Source: Flavobacterium ovatum (lineage in GTDB: Bacteria; Bacteroidota; Bacteroidia; Flavobacteriales; Flavobacteriaceae). Taken from it: a stretch of 64,000 bases of DNA. Made by a program: the position numbers and the translations under genes. Below are positions 42,087-57,758 of this stretch, one piece after another. The notes under the pieces are model-generated. The model saw only the letters and a program-made list of their open reading frames with translations, searched no databases and had not been told where the DNA came from. Where the stretch lies: positions 4,078,001 through 4,142,000 of the forward strand of contig NZ_CP160035.1 in NCBI RefSeq assembly GCF_040703125.1, in the 5' to 3' direction. Position 1 is the first letter of the stretch; each line of letters opens with the position of its first letter.

Positions 42087-42122
42087 TAAGTATAACTACG
42101 TATATTTGCTACGTAATACTTA
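42087..42122 (+). promoter_or_regulatory. nirB promoter with AAGTA-N4-TACGT operator
   Basis: AAGTA-TAAC-TACGT (42088-42101) runs into the -7 element TATATTTG (42101-42108). A second inverted arm, TACGTAATACTTA, follows at 42110-42122. TTG at 42080-42082 is a possible -33 element (18-base spacing). The same half-sites with four-base spacing occur at the narK, FNR-like and porin genes. Confidence 0.7.
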
Positions 42123-42133
42123 ATAATGATATT

Positions 42134-44647
42134 ATGATTAAAATAATAGTAGTCGGAAACGGCATGGTGGGTTTCAAATTTTGCGAAAAATTTATCTCAA
42201 AATCTGGACAAGAAAAATATCAAATTACCGTATTTGGTGAAGAACCAAGACGTGCTTATGACCGCGTTCACCTTAGTGAATATTTTGCAGGAAAAACAGC
42301 TGATGATTTATCAATGTCAACCGCAAATTGGTACGAAGAAAATAATATCATATTAAATACTTCTGAATTAATAACAGATATTCATAAAGAAAGCAAAACC
42401 ATTACTACTCATTTAGAAAAAACACATTCTTATGACTATTTGGTTTTAGCTACAGGATCATCTGCTTTTGTACCTCCAATTGAAGGAGTAGAAAAAGAAG
42501 GGGTTTTTGTTTATAGAACCATCGAAGATCTTGATGCTATTATGGCTTACGCCAAAAAAATAAAAGCAAACGGTTCGACTGAAGCTGCCGTTTTAGGTGG
42601 TGGATTACTAGGTCTTGAAGCTGCCAAAGCTGTTCGTGATTTGGGATTAAATCCTCATGTAGTTGAATTTGCGCCTCGATTGATGCCAAGACAATTGGAC
42701 AAAGGAGCAAGTAATATGTTGCAATCAAAAATTGAAGCATTAAATATAGGAATACACCTTAACAAATCGACTCAATATATTGCCGGAAAGGACGCTATAA
42801 CAGGCATGATGTTTGAAGGTGATCATTTACTTAAAGTAGATATGTTAGTAATCTCTGCAGGTATCAAACCAAGAGACGAATTAGGAAAAGGTGCGGGTCT
42901 AGAAGTAGGCGTACGTGGTGGTATTGTGGTAAATAACAAAATGCAAACTTCAGACCCAAACATTTTTGCTATTGGAGAAGTCGCTTTGTACAATCATATG
43001 ATTTACGGATTGGTTGCTCCAGGTTATGAAATGGCCGATGTAGCTGCTGAACAAATTATAGGGTCAGATAAACTGATGAGAGAAACCATAGATATGTCGA
43101 CTCAATTGAAATTGATCGGTGTTGAAGTGGCTAGTTTTGGAGATCCTTTTATCGAAAACGAAGAGGTTACGGCTATTGTTTTCGAAAATAAATTCAATGG
43201 CACTTACAAAAGAATCAATGTAACCAAAGACGGGAAAACATTATTAGGAGGAATTCTAGTGGGTGATTCTAGCGATTATAACGGTTTATTCCAAATATAT
43301 AGTAATGCAATGGCATTACCCCCAAATCCCGAGGACTTAATCTTAGGATCAAGAGGTGGCGAAGGTTCTACATTAGGAAACGCAATGGACTTACCCGATA
43401 CTGCGGTAATTTGTTCTTGCGAAAATGTAACCAAAGGTGCAATTTGTTGCTCCATTACTGACGGAACCTGCGAAACTATGGGTGATGTTGTAAAATTGAC
43501 CAAAGCAACTTCTGGTTGTGGTGGTTGTAAACCAATGGTTGTTGACTTGGTAAAAGCGGCTCAAAAATCGATTGGTAAAGAAGTAAAAGAAAGTATTTGT
43601 GAACACTTTCATTATACGAGACAAGAGTTATTTGATATTGTAAAAATCAACAAATATACCAACTTTTACGAAGTAGTCGATCATCACGGAAACGGAGATG
43701 GTTGCGAGGTTTGTAAACCAGTTGTTGCCTCTATTTTCTCTAGTATCTATAACGATACTGCCAACAAGCACGTTACGACTCAAGATACCAACGATAGATA
43801 CTTAGCCAACATTCAACGTAACGGAACCTATTCTGTAGTTCCTAGAATTGCTGGAGGTGAAATCACTCCTGAGAAACTTGTTGTTATTGGTGAAGTTGCC
43901 AAACAATTTGGATTGTATACTAAAATTACGGGTGCACAACGTCTCGATTTATTTGGAGCAACCTTAAATGATTTGCCTGCTATCTGGAAAATACTAATCG
44001 ATAATGGATTTGAAAGCGGTCACGCTTACGGAAAATCATTAAGAGCAGTTAAGAGTTGTGTAGGTAATGCATGGTGTCGCTACGGTATGGATGACAGTAC
44101 AACTTTTGCAATCGAATTGGAAAACCGTTACAAAGGAATTCGTTCTCCTCATAAATTAAAAGGTGGTGTTTCTGCTTGTATTAGAGAATGTGCCGAAGCT
44201 AGAGGTAAAGATTTTGGTGTAATCGCTGTTGAAGGTGGGTGGAACTTATACATCTGTGGAAACGGTGGAGCCAATCCAAAACACGCTGTTCTTTTGGCCG
44301 AAACAATAGACAAAGAAACCGTTTTCAAATACATGGATCGTTTCTTAATGTACTATGTACGCACCGCAGGACCATTAGTACGTACTTCTACTTGGTTAGA
44401 AAAACTAGATGGTGGATTGGACTACTTAAAAGAAGTAATTATTCATGACCGTATTGGAATTTGTGAAGCTTTGGAAGCTGAAATGCAATCACTTATTGGT
44501 ACTTACGAATGCGAATGGAAACAAGTACTAGAAAAACCAAGGTTGATGAAACGTTTTAGCCATTTTGTAAACTCAGATGACAAAGACGATAACATCGAAT
44601 ATGTACCAATCAGAGACCAACACATGCCAAAATCTTGGAATTTTTAA
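42134..44647 (+). CDS. nirB: Assimilatory nitrite reductase large subunit NirB
   Basis: This 837-residue protein reduces nitrite to ammonium with NAD(P)H. The N-terminal FAD/NAD domain (1-400) has GNGMVG and LGGGLLGLEAAK. Two Bfd-like [2Fe-2S] domains follow, with CSCENVTKG near residue 427 plus SGCGGCKP near 461, and a second CEVCKP near 524. The sulfite/nitrite reductase part has the siroheme-[4Fe-4S] cysteines SCVGNAWC (about 641 and 647) and CIREC (about 682 and 686). The length is normal. It is followed by a 249-base repeat-filled gap and nirD. The operator upstream ties it to the nitrate regulon proposed here. Confidence 0.97.
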   Translation: MIKIIVVGNGMVGFKFCEKFISKSGQEKYQITVFGEEPRRAYDRVHLSEYFAGKTADDLSMSTANWYEENNIILNTSELITDIHKESKTITTHLEKTHSYDYLVLATGSSAFVPPIEGVEKEGVFVYRTIEDLDAIMAYAKKIKANGSTEAAVLGGGLLGLEAAKAVRDLGLNPHVVEFAPRLMPRQLDKGASNMLQSKIEALNIGIHLNKSTQYIAGKDAITGMMFEGDHLLKVDMLVISAGIKPRDELGKGAGLEVGVRGGIVVNNKMQTSDPNIFAIGEVALYNHMIYGLVAPGYEMADVAAEQIIGSDKLMRETIDMSTQLKLIGVEVASFGDPFIENEEVTAIVFENKFNGTYKRINVTKDGKTLLGGILVGDSSDYNGLFQIYSNAMALPPNPEDLILGSRGGEGSTLGNAMDLPDTAVICSCENVTKGAICCSITDGTCETMGDVVKLTKATSGCGGCKPMVVDLVKAAQKSIGKEVKESICEHFHYTRQELFDIVKINKYTNFYEVVDHHGNGDGCEVCKPVVASIFSSIYNDTANKHVTTQDTNDRYLANIQRNGTYSVVPRIAGGEITPEKLVVIGEVAKQFGLYTKITGAQRLDLFGATLNDLPAIWKILIDNGFESGHAYGKSLRAVKSCVGNAWCRYGMDDSTTFAIELENRYKGIRSPHKLKGGVSACIRECAEARGKDFGVIAVEGGWNLYICGNGGANPKHAVLLAETIDKETVFKYMDRFLMYYVRTAGPLVRTSTWLEKLDGGLDYLKEVIIHDRIGICEALEAEMQSLIGTYECEWKQVLEKPRLMKRFSHFVNSDDKDDNIEYVPIRDQHMPKSWNF

Positions 44648-44659
44648 TACTAACTAAGG

Positions 44660-44885
44660 AGGAAATATTCAGTTTCTAAGTTACTAAGACGCTGAGTTTC
44701 TAAGTTTTTTTTGATGATGGTTATATATTTTATAATTGGTCGAATAAATCTTAGGAACTCAAAATTCAAAAACTTAGGAACTTAGATACTCAGAAACTAC
44801 TCAAGACTTACAAAAAAGTTATAAACTAAGCTAAAAGCTACTTACCAAAAGCTAAAAGCTACTTACAAAAAGCTAAAAGCTAAAA
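44660..44885. repeat. Simple and inverted repeats between nirB and nirD
   Basis: TTCTAAGTTACTAAGACGCT and its inverted relative GGAACTTAGATACTCAGAAACT flank the gap, and AAAAGCTACTTAC/AAAGCTAAAAGC units are repeated in tandem at 44830-44885. A related CTAAGTTTCTAAG repeat occurs at 60493-60640 in the nrt operon. No terminator is seen. Confidence 0.6.
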
Positions 44886-44896
44886 AATTAAAGAAC

Positions 44897-45274
44897 ATGG
44901 AACACGTATTAGACAAATATAAAACGGTTACTCTTGAAGATGTAAAAGTTTGGTTTAAAGCCGGAACACTTAAAGATTTCCCAAGTAACAGAGGAGGTTG
45001 CGTAAAATACAAAGACAAACAAATTGCTGTTTTTAACTTTGAAAGAAGAAATGAATGGTATGCCTGTCAAAATGTTTGCCCTCACAAGCTAGAAATGGTT
45101 CTTTCGAGAGGAATGACTGGATCTGCCGATAACGTTCCTAAAATCGCTTGTCCAATGCATAAGAAAACATTTTCACTTGTGGACGGTAGCAACTTGAATG
45201 GTGAAGATTATTCGATTGCAACTTATCCCGTAAAAGTTGTTGAAGGAGAAGTATTGATTGGGTTTATTGATTAA
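44897..45274 (+). CDS. nirD: Nitrite reductase small subunit NirD (Rieske-like)
   Basis: This 125-residue Rieske-fold protein pairs with NirB. All four cluster ligands are visible: Cys61-Pro-His63 and Cys85-Pro-Met-His88. Some enteric NirD proteins have lost these, so here a real [2Fe-2S] cluster is likely. The N-terminal part (VTLEDVKVWFKAGTLKDFP) is typical for NirD. The DUF4202 gene starts 35 bases downstream. Confidence 0.95.
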   Translation: MEHVLDKYKTVTLEDVKVWFKAGTLKDFPSNRGGCVKYKDKQIAVFNFERRNEWYACQNVCPHKLEMVLSRGMTGSADNVPKIACPMHKKTFSLVDGSNLNGEDYSIATYPVKVVEGEVLIGFID

Positions 45275-45309
45275 AGTATGTATATTTGAAGTATCAAAAA
45301 ATACTCCAA

Positions 45310-45897
45310 ATGACAACTACACCCTTCCAACAAGCAAGCCAATGGATTGATGCCGAAAACGCTCAAGATCCAAATATAGAAATACACGAATCCATAAGTT
45401 TTCCAAAAGAACTATTATACTCTAATAGAATGTTTGCAAAACTTATGGATTTTTATCCTTCTGCCTCAGAAGAAGTACAAATAGCTTCCAAAGCACAACA
45501 CATCTGTCGTTGGAAAATCGCCCGTGACTCCTACCCAATGGATCGTGTAGGTTATTTGAAATGGAGAGAAGATTTGAAAAAATTTCATGCCAAAACTACG
45601 GCCGAGATACTTGGCAAAGCAGGTTATGATGCTGAATTTATTGCTAGAGTTACTTTCTTGATCGAAAAGAAATTACTTAAAAAAGATGCTGAAACTCAAT
45701 TACTGGAAGATGTTATCTGTCTGGTATTTCTAGAGTACTACTTAGAACCTTTTGTAGCAAAACACGACACAGAAAAATTAAAAAACATCATTCTTAAGAC
45801 ATGGAATAAAATGTCTGAAGCGGGACACCAAGCTGCTTTAAAAATCAATTACACAGCAGCAAATCTTGATTTGATCAAAGAAGCACTTGGACTATAA
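45310..45897 (+). CDS. DUF4202 domain-containing protein
   Basis: From the ATG at 45310 it has 195 residues, the usual family length; an upstream TTG at 45286 is less likely. The protein is helical with conserved HICRWKIARDSYPMDRVGYLKWR near residue 72, DAEFIARVTFLIEKKLL, and EDVICLVFLEYYL. DUF4202 genes are frequently found in nitrate and nitrite reductase clusters, but the reaction is unknown. The arrangement of His and acidic residues resembles HD-like helical proteins. It lies four bases before the sensor kinase gene. Confidence 0.88.
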   Translation: MTTTPFQQASQWIDAENAQDPNIEIHESISFPKELLYSNRMFAKLMDFYPSASEEVQIASKAQHICRWKIARDSYPMDRVGYLKWREDLKKFHAKTTAEILGKAGYDAEFIARVTFLIEKKLLKKDAETQLLEDVICLVFLEYYLEPFVAKHDTEKLKNIILKTWNKMSEAGHQAALKINYTAANLDLIKEALGL

Positions 45898-45901
45898 GCC
45901 T

Positions 45902-47710
45902 ATGAATAAAAATCTATCTGAATCTACCAGAAACTTTAACTTCAAAAGCTTAAAGAAGCGTTATATTTTTGCGCTAGTCACTATTGCCATAACGGTATTA
46001 TTGAGTCAATTATTGATTCAATATAATATCAATACGCAAATGGATGACTCCCGATTAATCAACATCTCTGGAAAACAAAGAATGTTGAGTCAAAAATTAG
46101 TAAAAGAGATTCTGATACTCAATACCATTTCCGATTCAGATAAAATAAACCAGCAAATCAACCAAATCCAGGAAACAGTTGCTATCTGGAAAGGGACTCA
46201 AATAGGACTGCAATTTGGAAACGAAAGTTTGAATTTTCCGGCTGATCATAGTGCCAAAATGACCGCTTTATTCGAAAGTATCAATCCAAATTTTGATTCG
46301 ATTGTACAAACTACAACACTCATTTTACAAAATCGAAAAGCAGGTGATGGTCCAATTGAAAACCAATCTTTAATTCAAAAAATACTAGACAATCAGGCTC
46401 TTTTCTTAAAAAAAATGAATCTGATTGTAGGACAATATGAAAAAGAGGCTTACCACAAAGTAACCTTACAGCGCAATATAGAATACGGCATTTTAGCCTT
46501 CACCTTAATGGTTTTGTTACTGGAATTTCATTTTATTTTTAAACCCACCAATAAAAGGATCGAGGAGCTTATTTTTCAGCTTTTAAGTTCTGAGAAGAAA
46601 GCACTCAAACTCGCCTACAATACCGAAGTTTTGAGCGAACTAAAAGAGAATTCTGTCAAGGAGTTGAAATCGCTCAACTATGCGATGGAGAATACCTTGC
46701 TCTACTGCCGTGTCGCCAATGACGGAACGATTATTCATATTGGAGAAAAATTCGCCAAACTCATCAACTATACCGCTTTTCAGGCTGATAAGAAGTTCTC
46801 AAAAATACTGACACCTATAGAAAGCGAACAACTTTTTGTTGATCGAATTATAAGCGGAAAACAACGAAACGGCTGGCAAGGCGAACTAAACCTTACAAAT
46901 AACAATAACGAATCGATTTGGTTTGACTTATCTATGATTCCGGTTTCTATCCGTAAAGAAGAATCAGAGTTGTTAATTATTTGTTTTGATATTACTATTC
47001 GAAAAAATGCAGAGCAAGAAGTAGAACGCTTGAGCGCTGAAAACATAGCCGAAAAAATAAACCAACAAAAAATCATTTCGAGTAGAATTGTCGAAAACCA
47101 AGAAAACGAACAAAACCGAATTGCCAGAGAAATTCACGACGGAATTGGTCAAATGTTAACGGGCTTAAAATTTAGTCTCGAAAGCATTAATTTGGACGAC
47201 AAAGAGAAGTCGGCACAGAAAATTGAGTACCTTAAAAAATTATCTTTAGACATTATTAAAGGTGTTCGAACAGCTACTTTCAACTTAATGCCGCCCGAAT
47301 TAAGCGATCATGGAATTGTATCCTCAATTGCCAAACTAACACAAGAACTATCCAAATTGACTGGGAAAAATATTTTGTTTTACAACAAAACTAATTTTGA
47401 CCAACGACTCGATTCATTAATAGAAATAAATTTATATCGACTAACCCAAGAAGCGATTAACAATGCCATTAAATATGCGGATTCCTCACACATTATAGTG
47501 CAACTTTCGCACAGTAGCAACCTACTAAGTATTACCATTGACGACAATGGCAAAGGTTTTGACCTAAGTACGGTAGACCAAAAGAAAACCAGTGAATCTG
47601 GTATGGGATTGCTATTTATGAAAGAGCGAATTCAATACATAAACGGTCGTGTGTTTTTTAACTCTATTGTTGGCGAAGGAACTAGAATTACTTTCAATAT
47701 TCCTATTTAA
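45902..47710 (+). CDS. NarX-like nitrate/nitrite sensor histidine kinase
   Basis: The start ATG at 45902 gives 602 residues. Two membrane helices (about residues 20-40 and 196-216) enclose a periplasmic PilJ/NarX-type helical domain with RLINISGKQRMLSQKL, comparable to the P-box of NarX that binds nitrate. A coiled linker and a PAS domain (about 250-380) follow. The HisKA_3 motif is REIHDGIGQML with His near residue 413, and the ATPase domain has DDNGKGFDL and GMGLLFMKER. It lacks a DNA-binding part and probably phosphorylates the response regulator at 48014. Nitrate as ligand is inferred from the domain and the neighbours. Confidence 0.9.
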   Translation: MNKNLSESTRNFNFKSLKKRYIFALVTIAITVLLSQLLIQYNINTQMDDSRLINISGKQRMLSQKLVKEILILNTISDSDKINQQINQIQETVAIWKGTQIGLQFGNESLNFPADHSAKMTALFESINPNFDSIVQTTTLILQNRKAGDGPIENQSLIQKILDNQALFLKKMNLIVGQYEKEAYHKVTLQRNIEYGILAFTLMVLLLEFHFIFKPTNKRIEELIFQLLSSEKKALKLAYNTEVLSELKENSVKELKSLNYAMENTLLYCRVANDGTIIHIGEKFAKLINYTAFQADKKFSKILTPIESEQLFVDRIISGKQRNGWQGELNLTNNNNESIWFDLSMIPVSIRKEESELLIICFDITIRKNAEQEVERLSAENIAEKINQQKIISSRIVENQENEQNRIAREIHDGIGQMLTGLKFSLESINLDDKEKSAQKIEYLKKLSLDIIKGVRTATFNLMPPELSDHGIVSSIAKLTQELSKLTGKNILFYNKTNFDQRLDSLIEINLYRLTQEAINNAIKYADSSHIIVQLSHSSNLLSITIDDNGKGFDLSTVDQKKTSESGMGLLFMKERIQYINGRVFFNSIVGEGTRITFNIPI

Positions 47711-47938
47711 GTCTACATTTGGCACGAAAGTACAAAGTCTCTATGTTTTAAAAAAGCAGACAGGTTCATTAGAACAAACACAACAGTAATTTTTGGCCAC
47801 AACCCGACCGAAAACGAACAGGCGAAGCAATCACACCACATTCAAATTCGTTACCATTCGTGTAATTCGTGGCTGAATATTTTATTTTAAAACCTCATCC
47901 GTATACACTAACGCCTCTACTCTTTTTTTTCAAAACTA

Positions 47939-47960
47939 AAGAATTAATACGTATATTGCA
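47939..47960 (+). promoter_or_regulatory. Candidate promoter of the response regulator gene with imperfect operator
   Basis: AAGAA-TTAA-TACGT (47939-47952) runs into TATATTG, the same layout as at nirB but with a weaker left arm. A second TACGT lies at 47979. The other bases of the 47711-48013 gap are common repeat-like sequence. Confidence 0.45.
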
Positions 47961-48013
47961 GCCTATTTTAGTGTTTAATACGTAACACATTCTTATTTTA
48001 ACTTAAGTACATT

Positions 48014-48670
48014 ATGAGTGATATTATTCGAGTAGTTCTAGCAGATGACCATGTTTTTGTACGAGATGGAGTAAAATCCTTGTTAGAATCTGAAGAAAAC
48101 ATAGTCGTTGTTGGCGAAGCAACAGATGGCCTTGAAGCCCTTACAGTTGTTGAAGAAACCAAACCCGACTTACTGATTATCGATATTCGTATGCCAAATA
48201 TGACTGGTATTGAAGCCGTAGATAAACTACGTAAATCTGGAAATTTCGTCAAAGCAATTGTACTCTCTATGCACGACTCAGAAGAATACGTATTGAAAGC
48301 AATCCAAGCTGGTGCAGACGGCTACTTACTAAAAGGATCTAGCAAAGAAGAATTCTTGAAAGCATTGCATACCGTAAGTAATGGCGGTAAGTACTTCACA
48401 GGAGATATTTCGTCTATATTAATCAACCAATTGTCAAACGGCGGTGCGGTTGAGCAAAAAAGCCCAATGGCCGAGGAATTGACAATCACCAAAAGAGAAA
48501 AAGAAATTTTAAAATTATTGCTTTCTGGTAAAGGAAATAAAGAAATCGCCGAAACACTCGAAATCAGTAAACGAACTGCCGAAGTACACCGTTTCAACCT
48601 GATGAAGAAATTAAAAGTCAAAAATTTAATGGAACTTTCGAATAAAGCAACTGAATATTCTTTGTTGTAA
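48014..48670 (+). CDS. NarL/FixJ family response regulator
   Basis: This 218-residue regulator has a receiver domain (ADDHVFVRDG, phosphorylated Asp in LLIIDIRMPN near residue 57, and LSMHDSEEYV with the conserved switch Ser) and a LuxR-type DNA-binding domain at residues 150-210 (LTKREKEILKLL..GKGNKEIAETLEISKRTAEVHRFNLM). It follows the NarX-like kinase by 303 bases and is its likely partner. A strong terminator follows. Target genes are not known. Confidence 0.93.
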   Translation: MSDIIRVVLADDHVFVRDGVKSLLESEENIVVVGEATDGLEALTVVEETKPDLLIIDIRMPNMTGIEAVDKLRKSGNFVKAIVLSMHDSEEYVLKAIQAGADGYLLKGSSKEEFLKALHTVSNGGKYFTGDISSILINQLSNGGAVEQKSPMAEELTITKREKEILKLLLSGKGNKEIAETLEISKRTAEVHRFNLMKKLKVKNLMELSNKATEYSLL

Positions 48671-48694
48671 ATCTAAAGTTTAAAAAACATATTG

Positions 48695-48736
48695 TCCGTT
48701 CCTTCAAAAAACAATTTTGAAGGAACGGATTTTTTT
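48695..48736 (+). terminator. Intrinsic terminator of the response regulator gene
   Basis: The perfect 15-base stem TCCGTTCCTTCAAAA / TTTTGAAGGAACGGA is followed by a T run. Confidence 0.93.
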
Positions 48737-49063
48737 ATACTCCATTTTAAGGTTGAGGCATCAAAGGTTTTTGACACGAATTAACACGAATAGGCACGAA
48801 TTAAAATAAAATTCCACGAATTCCTTTCGCACTTAGAATGAGAAGTTTTGCAATAATTTGTAAATCACAATTCAATAGAATCGGGTTTTAACCTGATTAC
48901 ACAATACAATCCGCACAGGGCTTTAGCCAAAATAATGGAATCTAAAAACATTGTACCTCATCAATCCTAAAACATCGGGATAAATCCCGACGCAATTCAA
49001 CAAATCTCCTTTCAATAAATACTCAAATCGAAACTTTTTTTTTGCATGAGGGATAGTAGTGGA

Positions 49064-49102
49064 AATCCTTTTTTGGGGCTTTTTCTGCCCCAAAAAAGAT
49101 TG
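49064..49102. repeat. Hairpin repeat, copy 2
   Basis: This copy is identical over 39 bases to 6006-6044, with the CTTTTTTGGGG / CCCCAAAAAAG stem. The 48671-49327 gap otherwise holds CACGAATT-type repeats at 48776-48830 and the narK control region. Confidence 0.75.
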
Positions 49103-49222
49103 GAACGGATAGCCCGGCCCGCGTTTTTCAGCGGGACATGCCCAAATAAACCATCATATCACTATGAATAAACCTCAAAAAACGCCTGAAAATAAACGAA
49201 AATCTCAAAAACAACAAAAACT

Positions 49223-49306
49223 ACGTATTATTACGTAAAAATACGTATTTATTTTTCAAAAACTGCGTTTTCGCAGGTTTTCACTAGCATTTACTACTTA
49301 TCTTTG
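49223..49306 (+). promoter_or_regulatory. narK control region: two overlapping perfect ACGTA-N4-TACGT dyads and -7 element
   Basis: ACGTA-TTAT-TACGT (49223-49236) and ACGTA-AAAA-TACGT (49233-49246) share a TACGTA core; both arms are perfect in each. TATCTTTG at 49299-49306 fits the -7 consensus, so the dyads lie upstream of the promoter, a position expected for activation. Confidence 0.7.
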
Positions 49307-49327
49307 TCAAAAAAAATATAAGTACAT

Positions 49328-50809
49328 ATGGAAAATACAACTTCTTTATCAAAATCACACCGCATGTTATTCCTCAACACGCTGGCATTTACAATTTGCT
49401 TTGCTTGTTGGACATTAAATGGTGTACTAGTTACCTTCTTAGTAGACAAAGGTATTTTTAACTGGAGCGTTGTACAAGTAGGATGGTTATTGGGAATCCC
49501 GATTTTAACCGGTTCTATCATGCGTTTACCAATTGGAATCCTAACAGATAAATATGGCGGAAAATATGTTTTTGCCACCTTACTTCTCTTATGCTCTATT
49601 CCGCTTTTCCTTTTACCATTGGCCGATAGCTTTTTCATGTTTGCTATTTTAAGCTTTTTGTTTGGATTGGTAGGAACCAGCTTTGCCGTTGGAATTGGAT
49701 ACACTTCAATATTTTATCCAAAAGAATGGCAAGGTAGAGCATTGGGGATTTTTGGAATGGGTAATGCAGGCGCCGCTATTACAACTTTTGTAGCGCCATC
49801 ATTACTAAATCAATTCTCTATTGCAGACCCTGAAAACGGATGGAAAATGCTTCCAATAGTTTATGGAGCTGTTTTATTAGTCATTGGATTAATCTTCTTA
49901 TTTTTTGCAGAAAACAGAAAATTAGAAAAATCAAACCGTACGATTCCGCAAATGCTTACTACCTTAAAAAGTGCTAGAGTTTGGCGTTTTGGAGCGTATT
50001 ATTTCTTAGTATTTGGATGTTTTGTAGCGTATTCACAATGGTTACTACCCAACTTTATGAATGTTTACTCAACAAGTTTGGTCATGGGTGGAATGTTTGC
50101 CACCATGTTTAGCTTACCGTCTGGAGTAATTCGTGCTTTTGGAGGATATTTGTCTGATAAATTTGGAGCTCGTAAAGTAATGTATTGGGTATTGAGTTCT
50201 TCAGTTATTTTGAGTGCTTTGTTGATGATTCCAAAAATGGAAATCACCACTGCAGGACCAGGTGTTATGGCTGGTAAAAAAGGAATCGTGACCGCAATCT
50301 CACCAGAGAAAGTATCTATTGGAGACAAAGAATATGCCATTGATTCCAAACCAGAAGCCACAGAACAAGGGAATATTTTCCCAACTAAGTCCTCTTGGCA
50401 AAAAGTAATTGTGGAGCAAAACCAAGAAGTAAACAAGAAAGAATTAATTGCCAAAGGAGTAACAAGAATCAACTTTGACGCCAATATGTGGGTGTTCTTA
50501 GTCTTAGTAATCTTGATTGGTATTTCATGGGGAATTGGTAAAGCAGCGGTGTACAAACACATCCCAGAATATTTCCCTACCGAAATCGGTGTTGTTGGTG
50601 GAATGGTAGGATTACTAGGTGGACTAGGTGGCTTCTTTTGTCCAATTATCTTTAGTTACCTATTAACTACAACTGGAATCTGGTCTAGTTCTTGGATTTT
50701 TGTATTGCTTTTCTCTGCAATTTGTTTGATCTGGATGCACGTAACCATCACCAACATGATGAACGAAAAACAACCCGGAATGGCAAATCAAATCGATAGA
50801 AAAAATTAA
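49328..50809 (+). CDS. narK: NarK-type nitrate/nitrite transporter (MFS)
   Basis: This 493-residue major facilitator has twelve membrane helices with nitrate signature regions GWLLGIPILTGSIMRLPIGILTDKYGG (near residue 60) and GMGNAGAAITTF (near residue 140), plus GGLGGFFCPIIFSY in the C-half. It takes up nitrate or exports nitrite. Between helices of the C-half there is an extra hydrophilic segment (about residues 303-380) with GVMAGKKGIVTAISPEKVSIG, longer than in classic NarK. It follows a separate promoter with two dyad operators. Confidence 0.95.
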   Translation: MENTTSLSKSHRMLFLNTLAFTICFACWTLNGVLVTFLVDKGIFNWSVVQVGWLLGIPILTGSIMRLPIGILTDKYGGKYVFATLLLLCSIPLFLLPLADSFFMFAILSFLFGLVGTSFAVGIGYTSIFYPKEWQGRALGIFGMGNAGAAITTFVAPSLLNQFSIADPENGWKMLPIVYGAVLLVIGLIFLFFAENRKLEKSNRTIPQMLTTLKSARVWRFGAYYFLVFGCFVAYSQWLLPNFMNVYSTSLVMGGMFATMFSLPSGVIRAFGGYLSDKFGARKVMYWVLSSSVILSALLMIPKMEITTAGPGVMAGKKGIVTAISPEKVSIGDKEYAIDSKPEATEQGNIFPTKSSWQKVIVEQNQEVNKKELIAKGVTRINFDANMWVFLVLVILIGISWGIGKAAVYKHIPEYFPTEIGVVGGMVGLLGGLGGFFCPIIFSYLLTTTGIWSSSWIFVLLFSAICLIWMHVTITNMMNEKQPGMANQIDRKN

Positions 50810-50837
50810 TATTAACTTCTTGGTTTTATAAAATAAC

Positions 50838-50871
50838 AAATCCCGTTTTCAGATGATGAAAACGGGATTTT
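50838..50871. terminator. Bidirectional terminator between narK and the T9SS protein gene
   Basis: AAATCCCGTTTTC pairs with GAAAACGGGATTT over a short loop and is flanked by A and T runs on both sides. It can serve narK (plus) and the convergent cobalamin locus (minus). Confidence 0.9.
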
Positions 50872-50896
50872 ATAGTTAAACTCTACTTTAAACGGA

Positions 50897-51868
50897 TTAC
50901 TGCACGACAATCTTCTTGATTGTTTTTTGTTTCCCAACAACAAATTCGACCAAATAATTCCCAGGAACTAAATCAGAAACGCGCATTTCTTTTCCCTGTG
51001 TACTATTACTATTTTTAATCAAACGACCCGTAAAATCGTAAACAGTTACCGTAAATTCCTCCTCTGTTTCAATATACAAAACATCTGAAACAGGATTAGG
51101 ATAAACAGAAAGCGAAGCAATAGCGTTAAAATTACTAACCGCCAAATTTTCGTTTTGATTGATAACACCCACTGCGTCTAAGTCAAACCCTCCAGAGGCA
51201 AAAGGAGTGCTATACAGTTCATTTATAATATTTCCTTTGCTATCATAAGAAGCATACAAAGGATCAATGGTACCAATAACATCTATTATTTTGATATGAG
51301 TGATTATATCTTTATTCAATAAAACATTATCTTCAAGATCTGATAAATCAAATGGCGTTCCATAATTGGATTTATACTTACCTGCAAGATTATGAATGTA
51401 TGTTGCATTTACAGAACCAAAACCACCAATTTGAGTTGTAGTTTGTGTTTCGCTGTGCGAAGGGAATCTGAAAAAATGCACTCCATCTGAACTCACCTCA
51501 ACAAAAGCTAATTCTAAAAAGGTATCCGAAAAGCCATTCTCAAAAACGGCAAAATCAAAACCATCTCCATTCATAATTGGCTTTGCAAAAGTTACAATGG
51601 CACTACCACCATCGCCCAAACTCACTACACCCGAACCATTGGGCGCGCCTAGAGCACTATCTGCTGTACCTACCGTAGCTACTGGTCCTGTTGGATTTTT
51701 GATATCTTGTGGCCCACGAGTAATTGTTGCTCCGGTTGCCCAAGCTTTAAAAACAGAACTTGTTCCTGCTATAGCCGTCGAACCTGCCTGTCCTGCTGGA
51801 CCTGGATACGATTGTGAATACCCACAAATAGTCAATAAAAATAGACTTAAAAATAATTTTCCTTTCAT
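50897..51868 (-). CDS. Secreted protein with T9SS type A sorting domain, cobalamin locus
   Basis: This 323-residue protein has a signal peptide (LFLSLFLLTICGYSQ), a globular body (residues 20-240) with AVFENGFSDTFLELAFVEVSSDG and a C-terminal type IX sorting domain (SLSVYPNPVSDVLYIE...LVPGNYLVEFVVGKQKTIKKIVVQ). It is exported across the outer membrane and fixed to the cell surface. It lies downstream of the BtuG-like and BtuB-like genes under the cobalamin riboswitch, with a 174-base gap that includes a long inverted repeat (CTTTTTAGAC type, 51889-52018). A role in cobalamin capture is inferred. Confidence 0.88.
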   Translation of the reverse strand: MKGKLFLSLFLLTICGYSQSYPGPAGQAGSTAIAGTSSVFKAWATGATITRGPQDIKNPTGPVATVGTADSALGAPNGSGVVSLGDGGSAIVTFAKPIMNGDGFDFAVFENGFSDTFLELAFVEVSSDGVHFFRFPSHSETQTTTQIGGFGSVNATYIHNLAGKYKSNYGTPFDLSDLEDNVLLNKDIITHIKIIDVIGTIDPLYASYDSKGNIINELYSTPFASGGFDLDAVGVINQNENLAVSNFNAIASLSVYPNPVSDVLYIETEEEFTVTVYDFTGRLIKNSNSTQGKEMRVSDLVPGNYLVEFVVGKQKTIKKIVVQ

Positions 51869-52042
51869 AATTTCTTCTTTTTAGTGCATAAAAAAACCGT
51901 CTAAAAAGCCTATCTGCATCCAAGATCTATTACTTTTTTAAAATTTAGTATTAGATATTAGTTTTAGGATAGCTATTTAATTTTTCCCTTTGGGATAAAA
52001 AAAATACTTTTTAGACAGTTCTTATTTGATTATAATTTTAAT

Positions 52043-53074
52043 TTATTTGTTTGAGTAAAAGCTATTTGGACCTTTGCCTACCGTAAATGTTTTAACCACA
52101 GTCCCTGTTGAATTGTACACCGTAACTGTACCATCGGCTGTAAATCCATTGGCATCTGCCGTATAGATATTCCCATCTATAACATTAAATCCATAAAAAG
52201 TAGAATAAGGAGTATACGCTACTGAGATTAAAGCTGTTTCAGAAAAACTAGTTGCGGTAGTATTCATCACATAAACTCCTGCACCACTTGTATAATAAAT
52301 TTTATCTCCTTCAACATCCATGTTCAACGATCCTGTCAATGTGGTAGACTCAAAAGAAGTTGCCGTATCTGAAGAAGAATTAATTTTAAACAATTTACTT
52401 CTAGCTGAATTTCCGCATAAAACATACACCACTCCATTTTTTTCTTCGATAGAATTAACACCTTCTTCAACAGTAATGGTCGATACAATAGCTTTTGTTG
52501 TTGGGTTTACAACCGTTACTTGATTTCCGTACCCATAAGCACCATTCATTACGTATAACTTTCCGTTTGCAGTTACAATTTTTTCGGCTGTTTTATTCAA
52601 CTCAATTGAAGCAATATAGCTGAATGTAGTTGCGTCATAAATAGTAATTGCTTTAGAAGTTGCATTTGTAACATACAATTTCCCGTTAAGAACAACACTA
52701 AAACGTGGATTTTTTATGTTTTCAGTTATCGTTCCCAAACTTTCAAAAGTATATCGATTTACTACTTCGACTTTGTTCGAATTATTTATAACAATATAGG
52801 CCTTGTCATTGTCAAAACTCATAGATTGTGCTACATCTCCTAATACTTTAGTTGGATTAACAGTCAAGAAAATATTGTTTTGAAATGTCAAAAAGTCATT
52901 TGAAATATAGGAAATTGATGCGTTTGGAGTACCATAATTCCCTTCATTCAAAATTAAAATACCGTTATCATAGGCTCCTAACGGAACATCATTTTCTGCA
53001 ACATCATCCTTTGTACAAGAAGCAAACAAAAAGGCAATGGCAAGAATGCTTACATAGTGTTTTTTAAATTTCAT
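52043..53074 (-). CDS. Beta-propeller lipoprotein, YncE/DUF5074 type (BtuG-like)
   Basis: This 343-residue protein has a lipobox (FLFASC) and a run of beta-propeller blades of the YncE/DUF5074 type (NSNKVEVVNRYTFESLGTI, GKLYVTNATSKAITIYDATT, and so on). It starts three bases after the BtuB-like gene and is under the cobalamin riboswitch. In Bacteroides the BtuG surface propeller binds cobalamin tightly and lids BtuB; the same gene pairing and fold here make BtuG function likely. The sequence itself does not prove ligand binding. Confidence 0.85.
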   Translation of the reverse strand: MKFKKHYVSILAIAFLFASCTKDDVAENDVPLGAYDNGILILNEGNYGTPNASISYISNDFLTFQNNIFLTVNPTKVLGDVAQSMSFDNDKAYIVINNSNKVEVVNRYTFESLGTITENIKNPRFSVVLNGKLYVTNATSKAITIYDATTFSYIASIELNKTAEKIVTANGKLYVMNGAYGYGNQVTVVNPTTKAIVSTITVEEGVNSIEEKNGVVYVLCGNSARSKLFKINSSSDTATSFESTTLTGSLNMDVEGDKIYYTSGAGVYVMNTTATSFSETALISVAYTPYSTFYGFNVIDGNIYTADANGFTADGTVTVYNSTGTVVKTFTVGKGPNSFYSNK

Positions 53075-53077
53075 TTT

Positions 53078-54913
53078 TTAATAATTAAGATTCAAATAAA
53101 TAGTTAAATTTCGCCCAGGCATATAGCGGCTAGGTAGCGCTTGATAATTTTCGTTCCAAAGATTGGCTGCTTTTATACCTACTTTAAAAATATTTTTTTT
53201 GCTAAAATTATAATCAACCCCTACATTAGAAACAGTGTAAGCATTTAGAATATACTTAGGACTATTATCTGAAGTTGTAAAAACATCACCAGTGTACATC
53301 AACTGATAATAGGCAGCTACTTTTTTGTAATTGTATTGCAATGCTCCCGTAAGTTTATGGTATGGCACGTAGAAAAGTTGTTTTTGAGTTCTCTCGTCTT
53401 TTGAAACCGTATAAGAGTAGGTTCCACTAAAACCAAAACTATGCGAATTCCATTTTTTTGAATACCCCAACAAAGCTTCAGCACCATAAATAGCAACCTT
53501 ATCGGTATTGATAGGTGACCAATTCCCGGAGTTTGTAGGCAACCAGCGAATCATATCATCAATCTTGGAACCGTAAGCCGTAACTGTTGCTCGAAAACCA
53601 TTATAGTGAAAATCATTTCCAATTTCTATTTGATAGGATTGCTCCGGTTTTAAATCTAAATTTCCGCTTCCGACCCAATACAAATCATTAAAGGTTGGAA
53701 TTCTATAATTTTTAGAAAAATTAAACTTTAAGTCATATACTTTAGAAAAAGAATATCGAGATCCAACAGAAAAAAGCACGGGACTTTTATATACATTTGA
53801 GAATTCTTTCCTCAGACTTCCTTCGTAATTCCATTGCTGCGTTAATTGTTGTTTCCACAGAAGGCTAGCACCTGCAATGTCACGACTATTTTTTTCTATT
53901 CCAGAACCCGTTCCATTGTTCCTTGTATAATCAATAAGAGTGGTTATTTTAGTATTTTTAAATACTGTATAATCAAGACTGTACTTTCCAATAAAGCTTC
54001 TCACGCCTCCAGAACTAAGTCCGTCCCTATTGATATCTTCAAAATAATTATAGTGCTCTGTAATATAAGCTAACTTTAAATCGGTCGTAAAAATCCCAAA
54101 TGAGCTGCCCCAACTCAGTAAATTTCGAGTATTAAAATCTTGGTATTTTGTTTTGGTTGCATTTGGAGAGGTTAGGGAAAAATGACGTTCACCATCATAA
54201 ATTTCGCTATAAAATTTCAAGCTATTCTTGTGATTTATTTTATATCCAAAAGCTACATCTAGCACATTATTATAATATTGCCCATTTAAATTCCGATCTT
54301 CTTTACCAACAAACTTAAAATCATTATCAGAACTAGTGCGAGAAAAACTAGCATCAAAACTGATGTTTTGGGTTGCAGCTGTAATTCCATATACCGCACT
54401 TAGCGTATTAAAATCACCGTAGTTAATTTGCAAATCATTGGTAAATGTATCGGTAAATTTTAAGTCATTATTCAAATGAATTGTACCACCAACAGCACCA
54501 CTACCATAGACAACGCTTCCGCCACCTGCTTTTACATCAATCGAATTAAAGCCACGAGTTGAGATCGTATTGAAATCGGTTTGCCCTAAAAGTTGTGAAT
54601 TAATGTTTATTCCGTTCCAAATTACTGCTGTTTGCTGTGCCGAAGTCCCTCTAAAAGATGGAGAAGAAACCATTCCCAGACCATTTTCTTTAAAATAAAG
54701 TACCGTGTTGAAATTCAAAAGTGAGGTAAGCGAAGCTCCATTTCGACTGATTAAGGAATCATTCAAATGCTGAATAGACTGCGTATTCTTAAACTGTTTA
54801 AGGTAAGTGTCTGAAACGACAACTTCCTTTAACTTATGAATACTGTCGGATTGTGCCCATACAAACTGGCACATCAAAAATAAGATGTAAAAAATCGAGT
54901 TATTTCTTGTCAT
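53078..54913 (-). CDS. btuB: TonB-dependent outer-membrane receptor, BtuB-like
   Basis: This 611-residue protein has a signal peptide (LFLMCQFVWAQ), a plug domain (residues 30-150, with SLTSLLNFNTVLYFKENG, SSPSFRGTSAQQTAVIWNGI and GSGAVGGTIHL), and a 22-strand barrel ending in a typical aromatic terminus (LTIYLNLNY). The size and the riboswitch directly upstream identify it as a cobalamin receptor. Import would need TonB and an inner-membrane BtuCDF, which are not in the window. It is the first gene of the minus-strand unit with the BtuG-like and T9SS genes. Confidence 0.92.
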   Translation of the reverse strand: MTRNNSIFYILFLMCQFVWAQSDSIHKLKEVVVSDTYLKQFKNTQSIQHLNDSLISRNGASLTSLLNFNTVLYFKENGLGMVSSPSFRGTSAQQTAVIWNGININSQLLGQTDFNTISTRGFNSIDVKAGGGSVVYGSGAVGGTIHLNNDLKFTDTFTNDLQINYGDFNTLSAVYGITAATQNISFDASFSRTSSDNDFKFVGKEDRNLNGQYYNNVLDVAFGYKINHKNSLKFYSEIYDGERHFSLTSPNATKTKYQDFNTRNLLSWGSSFGIFTTDLKLAYITEHYNYFEDINRDGLSSGGVRSFIGKYSLDYTVFKNTKITTLIDYTRNNGTGSGIEKNSRDIAGASLLWKQQLTQQWNYEGSLRKEFSNVYKSPVLFSVGSRYSFSKVYDLKFNFSKNYRIPTFNDLYWVGSGNLDLKPEQSYQIEIGNDFHYNGFRATVTAYGSKIDDMIRWLPTNSGNWSPINTDKVAIYGAEALLGYSKKWNSHSFGFSGTYSYTVSKDERTQKQLFYVPYHKLTGALQYNYKKVAAYYQLMYTGDVFTTSDNSPKYILNAYTVSNVGVDYNFSKKNIFKVGIKAANLWNENYQALPSRYMPGRNLTIYLNLNY

Positions 54914-54959
54914 AATACTTGAAACCCCTTTTTCCCGAGAGATTTATATTAGTTAAGAA

Positions 54960-55160
54960 AAAAGGCAGGTCTCCTGGCTTGCGTCTTGTTGTTTACCTTC
55001 TCATTCGCCAAGGGGAACAATGGTTGTGTAGATAACAACAAGCTTTCTAGCTTACAGTTGCGGGAACAGCTCAGGATTTTAGATTAATTTTTATTGGCAA
55101 AAGCAATGATTAATCTACCACCTGATTCCCTTTTAATGCTCTTTAAAATTTAAAAAGCAA
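54960..55160 (-). ncRNA. Cobalamin riboswitch
   Basis: On the minus strand the conserved elements appear in order: GGGAATCAGGTG near 55130, CTGAGCTGTTCCCGCAACTG and TAAGC near 55055-55075, and AAGCCAGGAGACCTGCC at 54964-54980 as the closing paired element. It lies about 50 bases before the BtuB-like start, so it should repress translation or transcription when adenosylcobalamin is bound. A minus-strand -7 element TACATTTG is at 55182-55175, upstream of the RNA. Confidence 0.93.
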
Positions 55161-55403
55161 CCTCAATTCGAGCGCAAATGTAGTTTTATATTTGCCTTTA
55201 AACTAAATAAAAATTGTATTTTTTTTCACAGTTGGGACACAACTACCCAAATTGAACGGCTTAATTTTGGTCTAAATTAATAAAACGGCAATTGCAAAAC
55301 CAATATAAATTAGTGTCTAATTTTGCTTAATAACTAGAATAACCCTATCTAATTACCAAATTCTCAAATACACAAAAACGAATTACTTTAATCGATACAA
55401 TTA

Positions 55404-55417
55404 AGTATAAATACGTA
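55404..55417 (+). promoter_or_regulatory. AAGTA-N4-TACGT operator upstream of the FNR-like gene
   Basis: AAGTA-TAAA-TACGT lies 52 bases before the start at 55470 and runs into TATTTTTA, a degenerate -7. It is identical in 13 of 14 positions or better to the nirB and porin sites. Its position suggests autoregulation. Confidence 0.65.
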
Positions 55418-55469
55418 TTTTTAACTAAATTTATAAGAAATAGAAGAAATCTTCTAAAATCAAAACGTC

Positions 55470-56174
55470 ATGCAAAGATTAAACGCCGATTGTAGTACTT
55501 GTGAAAATGCAAGCTGTTTTATAAAAAAACACCTGCATCTAGAAAAGATGCAAGATTTTGTATTGCAAAAAAATACTTTTGCTTGCAAAAAAGGTCAGCA
55601 GTTCATGATTGAAGGCGCACCAATACAAGGGTTATACTTTTTATACCAAGGAAAAGTAAAAATTATAAAAACGGGAATTTATGGCAAAGAGCAAATCGTT
55701 CGTTTGGCAGTTCAAGGAGATACTATAGGATTTAGAGGATTTGGAACAAGAAACCGTTACCTTATAGGAGCAGCTGCTATAGAAGATACTGTATTATGTA
55801 ATTTCAGTAATGAAATCATGGAAAGCATACTCAAAACCATTCCTGAGTTCACCTATGATATGATGCTATTTTATGCCGAAGAACTCAATAAGAGCGAAAA
55901 TAAAGTAAAAAAAATTGCCCAAATGAATGTACGCGAAAGAGTAATTGACACCTTATTACACTTATACAACAAATTTGGACATACCAACAATCTTATCAAT
56001 GTGAGTTTGTCTCGAAAAGAAATTGCCGATTTTGCAGGAACTACAGATGAGCAAGTGACGCGTATCTTCTCGAGTCTCAAAAAAGAAGCTTTAATAAATA
56101 CCGTAGGTAAAAAAATAAGCCTCGTACAAATTAACAAACTACAAGGAGAAATAGTAGAACACAAACAATTCTAA
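55470..56174 (+). CDS. Crp/FNR family regulator with FNR-like cysteines
   Basis: This 234-residue regulator has a cyclic-nucleotide-binding-like domain (residues 30-130) and a winged helix-turn-helix (residues 155-215). The N-terminus has C-x2-C-x4-C (Cys8, Cys11, Cys16), and VLCNFSN gives a fourth central Cys110. This is close to FNR, which holds a [4Fe-4S] cluster with C-x2-C-x5-C plus one central Cys. The recognition helix TTDEQVTRIFSSL has the E-xx-[ST]-R pattern that in FNR reads the G of TTGAT. It lies between the cobalamin locus and the nitrate transport operon. I infer it senses oxygen or nitric oxide and controls the dyads described here. Confidence 0.9.
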   Translation: MQRLNADCSTCENASCFIKKHLHLEKMQDFVLQKNTFACKKGQQFMIEGAPIQGLYFLYQGKVKIIKTGIYGKEQIVRLAVQGDTIGFRGFGTRNRYLIGAAAIEDTVLCNFSNEIMESILKTIPEFTYDMMLFYAEELNKSENKVKKIAQMNVRERVIDTLLHLYNKFGHTNNLINVSLSRKEIADFAGTTDEQVTRIFSSLKKEALINTVGKKISLVQINKLQGEIVEHKQF

Positions 56175-56198
56175 ATTCCCACTACAAATACATTTCAT

Positions 56199-56228
56199 AA
56201 AGCTCATTTTTAATGAGCTTTTTTTATG
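56199..56228 (+). terminator. Intrinsic terminator of the FNR-like gene
   Basis: AAGCTCATT / AATGAGCTT is followed by a T run, 25 bases after the stop. Confidence 0.88.
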
Positions 56229-56255
56229 CCTTATACTCAAAAACACTAAATACTT

Positions 56256-56269
56256 ACGTAAGAATACTC
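56256..56269 (+). promoter_or_regulatory. Weak extra ACGTA-N4-TACTC half-matching site
   Basis: ACGTA-AGAA-TACTC matches 8 of 10 arm positions of the proposed operator. It may be a second site for the porin promoter or chance. Confidence 0.3.
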
Positions 56270-56427
56270 GATTCTAACAAACAAAAAAACAAAAACCACA
56301 AGTTCACATACCACTAACAAACAGATGATTAGCTAAAAAACATGTCAAACAACAGTTTTTTATCTGTACTATATTTGATAAAACACCGCTTAAAAACCTA
56401 TTCTTTATTGTTTTTTACAATACATAT

Positions 56428-56452
56428 AAGTATAAATACGTACGTATATTTG
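56428..56452 (+). promoter_or_regulatory. Porin/nrt operon promoter with AAGTA-N4-TACGT operator
   Basis: AAGTA-TAAA-TACGT (56428-56441) is followed by CG and the -7 element TATATTTG (56445-56452), 46 bases before the porin start. The layout copies that at nirB. Confidence 0.7.
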
Positions 56453-56498: not shown

Positions 56499-57758
56499 AT
56501 GAAGCTACTTAAAACAATTTCCTTTTCAGTATTAGGATTAATTAGCGCTAGTACCTACGCACAAGAATTTAACGCCGACATTCAAATTAGACCACGTTAT
56601 GAATATACAAACGGTTTTGGAACTTTATTAACTCCAACCACAGAACATACTTCTTTTATAGGGCAACGTTCTAGAGTAAACTTAAACTACGGTGATTCTA
56701 AATTAAAAGTAAAAGTGGCATTGCAAAATCTACGTACTTGGGGAGATAGAAATACGATTCCAAAAAGTGATGTAAACGGAGTTGCCATTTATGAAGGATG
56801 GGCACAATATAGTTTTACTGATAAATGGAGTACAAAAATTGGTCGTCAAGTACTATCTTATGATAACCAACGTATTTTAGGAGGTTTGGATTGGGCTAAT
56901 CAAGGTCGTAGCCATGATGCTGCTTTAATCACTTACAAAGACAGTAAAAATCAATTGGATTTAGGATTTGTATTAAATGCAGATAACGAAAACAAAGTCG
57001 CTCCATCTACTCCATACAACACAGATCACAAAAACATGCAATATGCTTGGTACCATACCAATGCAAACAAAGTAGGATTGAGTTTCTTGGCAATGAACGT
57101 AGGTAGGGATTACTTAAAAGCTCCTGCTGAAATTGAAACCAATTACAATCAAACATTAGGTACATATATAACCTATAAAGGCAAAAAGGTAGCTTTAGAC
57201 TTTAGTTTTTACGGACAAACAGGAAAAATTGGAACTAACAAAGTTTCTGCCTACAACGCTTCTGCCAATGCAACTTTCGCATTAAGTTCAAAAGTAAAAG
57301 CAACTCTAGGATATGAATTTTTATCAGGAAAAGATCAAAACGATTTAAGCACAGATGTAAAATCTTTCAACCCTCTTTTTGGAACCAACCACGCTTTCAA
57401 TGGTTTTATGGATTACTTCTACGTTGGGAACCACGCAGGTTCTGTAGGATTGCAAGATGTATCGTTAAAATTGGATTTCCCAATCAAAAAAGTAAATCTT
57501 TCTTTGACTCCACACCTATTCTATGCTCCTAATAAAGTATTCGCTGGACCAGTTGAAAAAGACGCTTACTTAGGAACAGAGGTGGATTTAACAGCTGCAT
57601 ACAAACTATATAAAGATGTCGTTGTTGTAGCAGGATATTCTCAAATGTTTGGATCAAGCACGATGGAAACCCTTAAAGGTGGAATTGCAGGAACTACCAA
57701 CAACTGGGCTTGGGTAATGGTAAACATCAATCCACAAATCTTTTCAAGTAAAAAATAA
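56499..57758 (+). CDS. Outer-membrane porin-like protein (alginate export family), nitrate cluster
   Basis: This 419-residue protein has a signal peptide (FSVLGLISASTYAQ) and a beta-barrel pattern of alternating residues with regular turn segments (IQIRPRYEYTNGFGT, KIGRQVLSYDNQRILGGLDW, ending NINPQIFSSKK). It matches the alginate_exp/AlgE-like porins, a fold often used for anions and not only for alginate. Its place at the head of the nitrate transport genes, 30 bases before the binding protein, suggests a nitrate/nitrite channel. The promoter carries the proposed operator. Confidence 0.85.
   Translation: MKLLKTISFSVLGLISASTYAQEFNADIQIRPRYEYTNGFGTLLTPTTEHTSFIGQRSRVNLNYGDSKLKVKVALQNLRTWGDRNTIPKSDVNGVAIYEGWAQYSFTDKWSTKIGRQVLSYDNQRILGGLDWANQGRSHDAALITYKDSKNQLDLGFVLNADNENKVAPSTPYNTDHKNMQYAWYHTNANKVGLSFLAMNVGRDYLKAPAEIETNYNQTLGTYITYKGKKVALDFSFYGQTGKIGTNKVSAYNASANATFALSSKVKATLGYEFLSGKDQNDLSTDVKSFNPLFGTNHAFNGFMDYFYVGNHAGSVGLQDVSLKLDFPIKKVNLSLTPHLFYAPNKVFAGPVEKDAYLGTEVDLTAAYKLYKDVVVVAGYSQMFGSSTMETLKGGIAGTTNNWAWVMVNINPQIFSSKK

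Follow-up and report, generated by a model that had tools for sequence, protein, structure and literature searches.

A 16-bp inverted repeat, TAMGTAT-NN-ATACKTA, precedes the nitrate genes in a 64-kb stretch of the Flavobacterium ovatum genome (contig NZ_CP160035.1, positions 4,078,001 to 4,142,000; hereafter, the window, in which positions are counted from the first letter and all features named below lie on the + strand). This dyad is probably the operator of a NarHK-NarRR two-component system of the Bacteroidota that controls nitrate assimilation. Genes for both proposed components lie in the window: narHK, for a NarX-type nitrate-sensor histidine kinase, at 45887..47710 (start codon TTG at 45887 or ATG at 45902), and narRR, for a NarL-type response regulator and proposed reader of the dyad, at 48014..48670. 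The sites themselves, their conservation, the gene content of the clusters and the co-occurrence of sites and genes, which form the basis of this reading, are observed. On comparative sequence evidence, the nitrate regulon is real.

Dyads in the nitrate region of Flavobacterium ovatum

The first-pass annotation had proposed that a dyad, ACGTA-N4-TACGT, is shared by promoters of the nitrate region, and a sequence scan bears this out: every dyad it named is present, and the 16-mer TAMGTA-N4-TACKTA has no match in the 64 kb other than the five full dyads. Its coordinates were exact except for the site of the FNR-like gene, which lies at 55403-55416, not 55404-55417 (a shift of 1). Upstream of nirB, encoding the large subunit of NAD(P)H nitrite reductase (42134..44647; NCBIfam nirB model above cut-off), the dyad TAAGTATAACTACGTA occupies 42087..42102 (5-N4-5 core at 42088-42101) and overlaps a -7-like box, TATATTTG, at 42101-42108, with an extra TACGTA nearby at 42110-42115. 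The narK-type nitrate/nitrite transporter gene (49328..50809; MFS_1, with the NarK family model the best match, below cut-off) is preceded by two overlapping dyads, TACGTATTATTACGTAAAAATACGTA, at 49222..49247 (cores at 49223-49236 and 49233-49246), which form three hexamers in 10-bp phase, and its promoter also contains a half-site, TACTTAT, fused to the -7-like box TATCTTTG near 49299-49306. The dyad TAAGTATAAATACGTA is found twice, at 55402..55417 upstream of FNR1, an FNR-like regulator gene and probable target (55470..56174), and at 56427..56442 (core at 56428-56441) upstream of a target operon (56499..62439) that comprises a porin gene (56499-57758; Pfam/family models) and nrtA/B/C/D-labelled genes of a nitrate-type ABC transporter (57789-62439; nrtB model the best match, below cut-off). 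The porin dyad ends 3 bp 5' of another copy of TATATTTG, and this box thus adjoins the nirB and porin sites, as the annotation had described. Upstream of the response regulator, the weak site at 47939-47952 is present as half of a dyad; two single heptamers, TACGTAT (47948-47954) and ATACGTA (47978-47984), lie here (47948..47984) 23 bp apart, with no full dyad. When up to two mismatches to ACGTA-N4-TACGT were allowed, we counted 35 matches in the window, compared to 17.3 expected and a maximum of 28 in 100 shuffles.

In the complete genome (4.25 Mb in a single contig; closest named relatives, Flavobacterium), exact AMGTA-N4-TACGT occurs in 22 places. Of these, 11 fall in a 38-kb nitrate region (4,120,088-4,157,851), 9 of them intergenic (nirB, 2 at narK, FNR1, porin, nrtA2, 2 in the narB/FNR2 gap, and cobA) and 2 inside nirB. 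The 11 sites elsewhere comprise 9 coding and 2 counted as intergenic, such that 9 of 11 intergenic sites fall in the nitrate region (p ~2 × 10−17 for the clustering, with the region delimited by the sites themselves). One of the 2 outside intergenic sites (L009) sits in an 80-aa open reading frame (ORF) with a TTG start that was taken as spurious; the other (L008, genome position 3,072,743) lies, by eye, ~20 bp before an alanine-dehydrogenase-like gene. The cluster extends beyond the window to narB, whose product, a single 1171-aa protein, combines molybdopterin, flavin and BFD domains, to a second FNR paralog (FNR2, 68% identical to FNR1), to nrtA2, and to cobA, whose product carries a TP_methylase domain. 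By gene content (narB, nirBD, narK, nrt and cobA), the regulon is assimilatory.

Conservation of the dyad upstream of nitrate genes

An unbiased search of all perfect palindromic 5-mers at spacings of 0-12 in 81 loci (the best 80 of 89 relatives, and the own region) yielded, for ACGTA at N4, 83 intergenic and 2 coding occurrences, compared to 0-5 intergenic ones at each other spacing; the dyads that outranked it were A/T-only words. A logo built from 330 distinct sites in intergenic DNA with at most one mismatch (from sets A, B, B2 and C, as defined below; locus L166 of genome G104 and set D were left out) reads T(.85) A(.98) A/C G(.90) T(.97) A(.95) T(.58) T(.58), followed by its mirror image. 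At the outer position, which played no part in site selection, T reaches 85%, and hexamers at N4 are the same as heptamers TAMGTAT at N2, so that logo and spacing together describe a 7-2-7 operator of inverted heptamers. A TACK half-site fused to the -7 box (consensus TAnnTTTG), a placement that would be equally suited to repression, was present upstream of 123 of 501 target genes, narB among them, of 15 of 383 controls and of 8 of 852 unlabelled genes.

We then counted genes with AMGTA-N4-TACKT within 200 bp upstream + 30 bp, using greedy ORFs as gene calls (some starts are approximate) and leaving out genes whose upstream stretch ran off the contig; an earlier per-gene tally left out genes starting <300 bases from the upstream locus end. 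Across the Flavobacterium relatives, the dyad lies upstream of narB in 81 of 81 cases, of narK in 63 of 64 and of nirB in 11 of 11, which bears out the shared operator and nitrate regulon that the annotation had put forward. Control genes with the dyad number 0 of 406, all sets pooled; the scan of the complete genome and of relatives that the annotation had proposed thus finds dyads concentrated at nitrate genes, and not equally often before unrelated genes, the outcome it had named as speaking against a regulon. In set A (81 Flavobacterium loci, FNR-containing by construction), the dyad precedes 66/66 narB, 50/51 narK, 4/4 nirB, 16/16 FNR1 and 63/66 FNR2 genes (the FNR2 dyad being in the same gap as that of narB), 21/70 porin, 2/9 cobA, 1/19 nrtA2 and 0/8 nrtA1 genes, 0/253 control or operon-internal genes and 10/632 unlabelled genes. 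In set B (15 FNR-less Flavobacterium genomes with narB), these numbers are 15/15 for narB, 13/13 for narK, 7/7 for nirB, 2/14 for porin, 0/55 for controls and 0/91 for unlabelled genes. Set B2 (6 Flavobacterium genomes with the regulator, without narB and FNR) yielded 0/6 for porin, 0/3 for cobA, 0/7 for controls and 0/80 for unlabelled genes, with dyads 291-411 nt before porin, beyond the limit of the test. In set C (16 divergent FNR loci, 15 outside the genus), we found 5/5 for nirB, 4/4 for narK, 4/4 for cobA, 14/16 for nrtA1, 11/17 for FNR genes, 5/9 for narB (a count that includes napA-like genes labelled narB at ~35% identity), 1/9 for the regulator, 0/15 for porin, 0/73 for controls and 12/122 for unlabelled genes. 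For the three genomes from other families (set D), the counts were 1/1 for narK, 2/3 for porin, 1/3 for nirB, 1/3 for the regulator, 0/3 for narB, 0/2 for nrtA1, 0/2 for cobA, 0/18 for controls and 2/50 for unlabelled genes. The porin dyad is poorly conserved. Both kinds of single heptamer were found in 56 of 63 regulator promoters, 25 bp apart in 48.

NarRR or FNR as the reader of the dyad

Among 298 Flavobacterium genomes from a larger group, 84 have FNR (E ≤ 1e-60), 99 have narB (1e-200) and 107 have the response regulator (1e-70), and these sets are strictly nested. In the FNR-less genomes with narB, the narB dyad is kept in all 15, in 13 of them as a double, 10-bp-phased dyad, and the narK and nirB dyads are kept wherever the upstream region lay in the stretch. 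Another 8 genomes have the regulator while lacking both narB and FNR; in 6/6 of those examined, a dyad directly follows the regulator gene. In turn, a regulator ortholog (55-77% identity) is present in 16/16 divergent genomes that have both FNR and the dyad. Outside the order, four of the 326 genomes surveyed from the class encode a regulator relative (E ≤ 1e-58). Three of these four have a nitrate cluster but lack an FNR ortholog (best CRP/FNR matches, 27-33%). In two of these (G835 and G880; best CRP/FNR match 28% and 33%, respectively), 6 of 7 genome-wide TAMGTA-N4-TACKTA matches fall in the nitrate cluster (both matches of 7.7 Mb in G835, and 4 of 5 in G880), and intergenic AMGTA-N4-TACKT in the 40-kb regions numbers 4 in G880 vs. 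0.03 in shuffles, and 2 in G835 vs. 0.015. In G844, which has an FNR relative at 47%, the relative of the regulator lies outside a nitrate cluster, with no exact site in the surrounding 40 kb and 1 elsewhere in the genome. The annotation had implied the FNR-like 55470 protein as the reader; with dyads kept at narB, narK and nirB in its absence, this protein is unsupported as the main binder.

It is unlikely that one 16-bp dyad is read by both proteins, by the NarL-type regulator everywhere and additionally by FNR1/FNR2 where they are present, competing or cooperating. Such dual reading would agree with the binding of two-fold symmetric sites of this length by both families, with FNR genes being mostly preceded by the dyad or located behind a gene that has one, with the greater number of matches in FNR-containing genomes, and with the FNR-linked position of the narK dyad, ~85 nt before the start in most FNR-containing loci listed vs. 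34-61 nt in FNR-less ones. However, the narB promoters are alike, by eye, in loci with and without FNR (~10 each), and in 24 loci of distant FNR homologs, the intergenic DNA holds 0 perfect ACGTA-N4 dyads, 0 perfect AAGTA-N4 dyads and a few one-mismatch matches; the TGAT-type dyads found there were weak, none recurring in more than 5 loci. It is likewise improbable that FNR paralogs converged on TAMGTA arms, which would make nitrate and redox signals compete at assimilatory nitrate-reduction promoters.

Quite unlikely, too, is a reading in which the dyad is a modified FNR site, with ACGTA in place of TTGAT arms, through which FNR1 and FNR2, predicted to carry a [4Fe-4S] cluster, place the nitrate genes under oxygen or nitric oxide (NO) control. 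The two proteins do have the marks of the family: C8, C11, C16, C39 and C110 are conserved in FNR1, C8, C11, C16 and C110 recur in 98-99 of 99 close homologs of FNR1/FNR2 (L121 is without C8 and C110), E194 and R198 recur in 99 of 99, and C110 aligns with the VCEI cysteine of solved FNR. An N-terminal cysteine cluster and a cysteine at the C122 position are thus found both in protein 55470 and in L023:9300-10001:-, as expected for what is probably a [4Fe-4S] sensor. The dyads before FNR1, FNR2 and set C FNR genes, the narK distances, and the higher mean number of matches in FNR-containing than in FNR-less narB-containing genomes (9.0 vs. 6.7) also favor FNR binding. The annotation had further argued from the shape of the FNR site, and the 5-N4-5 geometry and the G at the same arm position do match; this is indecisive, because 7-2-7 sites of NarL share the 16-bp length, and geometry alone cannot distinguish an FNR site from a NarL site. 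The arms themselves differ: in the 81 loci, that of F. ovatum included, no perfect TTGAT-N4-ATCAA lies in intergenic DNA and 2 lie within coding sequence. The outer T also lengthens the half-site. An FNR operator should depend on the presence of FNR, whereas 15 of 15 FNR-less genomes keep the narB dyad and sites occur in other families without an FNR ortholog; on these grounds, FNR1/FNR2 were rejected as the main reader. The FNR genes look like targets instead.

The same clusters also hold a separate dyad, TATGAT-N4-ATCATA, that looks like a CRP/FNR-type site in its own right, which speaks further against assigning TAMGTAT-NN-ATACKTA to FNR. It lies ~60 nt before porin in many Flavobacterium loci, FNR-less ones included (L072:14623, L110:10847, L111:11178), and, with at most 2 mismatches, ~80 nt before 10 of 16 nrtA1 genes in other genera, compared to 28 of 260 other genes and 422 of 3200 shuffles.

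An NtcA-type site was rejected on spacing. NtcA, a CRP-family regulator of nitrogen assimilation, binds GTA-N8-TAC, and the half-sites GTA/TAC and the link to nitrogen assimilation are shared with the present dyad, whereas the spacing here is N4; FNR1 scores 42.6 bits against the NtcA model (cut-off 245).

An origin of the dyads as a by-product of AT-rich promoters or as a mobile repeat is very improbable and was rejected by the unbiased motif search, repeat inspection and the promoter test: although paired TACGTATTTATACGTA-type dyads do occur within a dispersed repeat in some Flavobacterium genomes, the sites are concentrated before nitrate genes in several families and absent from the pooled controls, stand at similar distances from the start codon within a set, and recur as hexamers even in a 61% GC stretch. 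The repeat consists of two TACGTATTTATACGTA-type dyads 33 bp apart (e.g., L129, L133, L136) and reaches 28-29 matches per strand; genomes that carry it (G053, G199, G236, G271) are without regulator and FNR.

Several observations weigh against control by NarRR. For an activator, it is unusual that dyads directly adjoin the -7 box, and position 4 of the heptamer is G, unlike in NarL. No full dyad was found at the regulator's own promoter in Flavobacterium (0/50, 0/13 and 0/6 in sets A, B and B2, respectively), and narB, nirB and nrtA1 are largely missed in other families (set D). Genome G952 (regulator at 53% identity) has 0 N4 dyads. A narX-type kinase beside the regulator was not recognised in 5 of the 6 genomes examined that have the regulator without narB. 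Regulator and FNR occur together in all 84 FNR-containing genomes, which are thus uninformative between the two, and another CRP/FNR paralog may act as reader in the FNR-less genomes. Conversely, 12 of 191 Flavobacterium genomes without the regulator have at least 5 matches (both strands summed); of 7 inspected, at least 4 (G053, G199, G236, G271) show the dispersed paired repeat, and two others of the 7 carry an array (G104) and dyads without assigned role (G113). Mean raw counts, 9.0 in FNR-containing genomes, are only moderately above control in FNR-less genomes with narB (6.7 vs. 4.3) and show no excess in genomes with the regulator but not narB (3.4 vs. control 4.8). Finally, the genomes are related and one genus is dominant, so the counts are non-independent. 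Because the count excess is weak or absent outside FNR-containing genomes, we dropped it as a main argument and relied on promoter-level tests.

Two of these genomes show other arrangements of the same hexamer. In G952 (L189/L190), TACGTA hexamers occur at N5, N6 and N8 before nirB and narB/porin, in the 61% GC stretch, possibly reflecting a change of dimer spacing. In G104, with no NarRR, narB or FNR at the limits used, four TACGTA hexamers stand 10 bp apart (L166, ~6939-6974) between divergent genes, close to an unrelated two-component pair.

Proposed mechanism and relation to known systems

The kinase 45887 contains a PilJ/NarX-like sensor (PilJ E = 4.3e-10), PAS, HisKA_3 and HATPase domains (Pfam); no HAMP or GAF match was found in it by Pfam, PAS standing alone in place of the proteobacterial HAMP/GAF linker. 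Its P-box, INISGKQRMLS, contains the GxxR of NarX-type sensors, and the pattern INx[ASG]GxxRMxS is present in at least 63 of 75 labelled kinases; among the misses listed, three retain GxxR within a variant box, and the remainder resemble fragments or other kinases. The regulator 48014 has the Response_reg and GerE domains (Pfam) of the receiver plus GerE/LuxR layout, and its best solved relative is E. coli NarL (1a04, E = 2.5e-39). It scores 161.8 bits against the NCBIfam NarL model (cut-off 250) and higher, 186.5 bits, against MctR (cut-off 300); because both scores are below cut-off, it is classed by these models as an equivalog of neither.

In the mechanism that we propose for NarHK-NarRR, nitrate would bind the P-box of kinase 45887, which would phosphorylate regulator 48014, and a dimer of the regulator would bind the inverted heptamers TAMGTAT in the 7-2-7 arrangement, often in overlapping arrays in 10-bp phase. 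The regulator would thereby induce uptake (narK and porin-nrt), reduction (narB and nirB) and siroheme synthesis (cobA) and, where they are present, the FNR-like genes, whose products could then add an oxygen or NO input. We infer which protein binds, that phosphorylation takes place, what FNR does and in which direction control runs; as to direction, physiology makes induction by nitrate the rather more plausible one.

The E. coli NarX/NarQ-NarL/NarP system resembles this arrangement in pairing a NarL-type regulator with a kinase that has a nitrate P-box, and differs from it in that the targets in Flavobacterium are, by gene content, assimilatory and the promoters are of the TAnnTTTG type. 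The NarL heptamer has the consensus TACYYMT, and NarL contacts bases through K188, V189 and K192; neither this heptamer nor this set of residues is found with protein 48014. Its recognition helix reads E-x-HRF, vs. K-V-HVK in NarL, with E and F at the two lysine positions, and this core is found in 80 of 82 collected regulators (the exceptions are HRY in L109 and D-x-HRY in the G844 relative). The changed helix fits the changed heptamer, TAMGTAT here compared to TACCCCT for NarL (PMC4549865, as far as its accessible part goes), with G at position 4 (0.90) here. According to the same part of that source, NarL/NarP operators are, like the present dyad, 16-bp inverted heptamers with a 2-bp spacer and outer TAC..GTA, also occur as single heptamers, and include an engineered 7-2-7 site, TACCCCTAAAGGGGTA.

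For the Bacteroidetes, the accessible part of a 2021 review (PMC8199190) describes nitrate sensors that consist of the sensor domain and PAS, without HAMP or GAF, and labels the pair narHK/narRR; proteins 45887 and 48014 are like this pair in having PAS without HAMP/GAF and in lying beside nitrate genes. Neither a binding site nor a regulon for narHK/narRR is given in that part of the review, which lists as open the role of the nitrate sensors in each host organism and signalling in the GAF-less Bacteroidetes sensors. These sensors now have a candidate operator together with a gene set, and species with and without FNR offer a natural experiment. Our results also suggest how a NarL-type system, familiar from respiration, could be used for nitrate assimilation in a major environmental phylum. 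We recognised no published operator or regulon for the dyad in the open-access literature, a scope outside which most subscription journals lie; PMC8510549, in its accessible part, concerns other CRP/FNR proteins.

In some genera other than Flavobacterium, the neighbors of the FNR gene (L112:3108-14125, L117:10905-14422; Pfam on L112 alone) are a gene for a napA-like molybdopterin reductase (35% to narB) and/or genes for a globin, a flavin/2Fe-2S reductase and multihaem cytochromes. In L112, L113, L114 and L117, the globin-like gene is preceded by a dyad at 39-46 bp. The FNR cluster is also adjoined by moeA (L119:10814-11992, by Pfam; L109:17441-18619) and molybdopterin-synthesis-like genes, and the L109 copy of moeA has a dyad 43 bp upstream.

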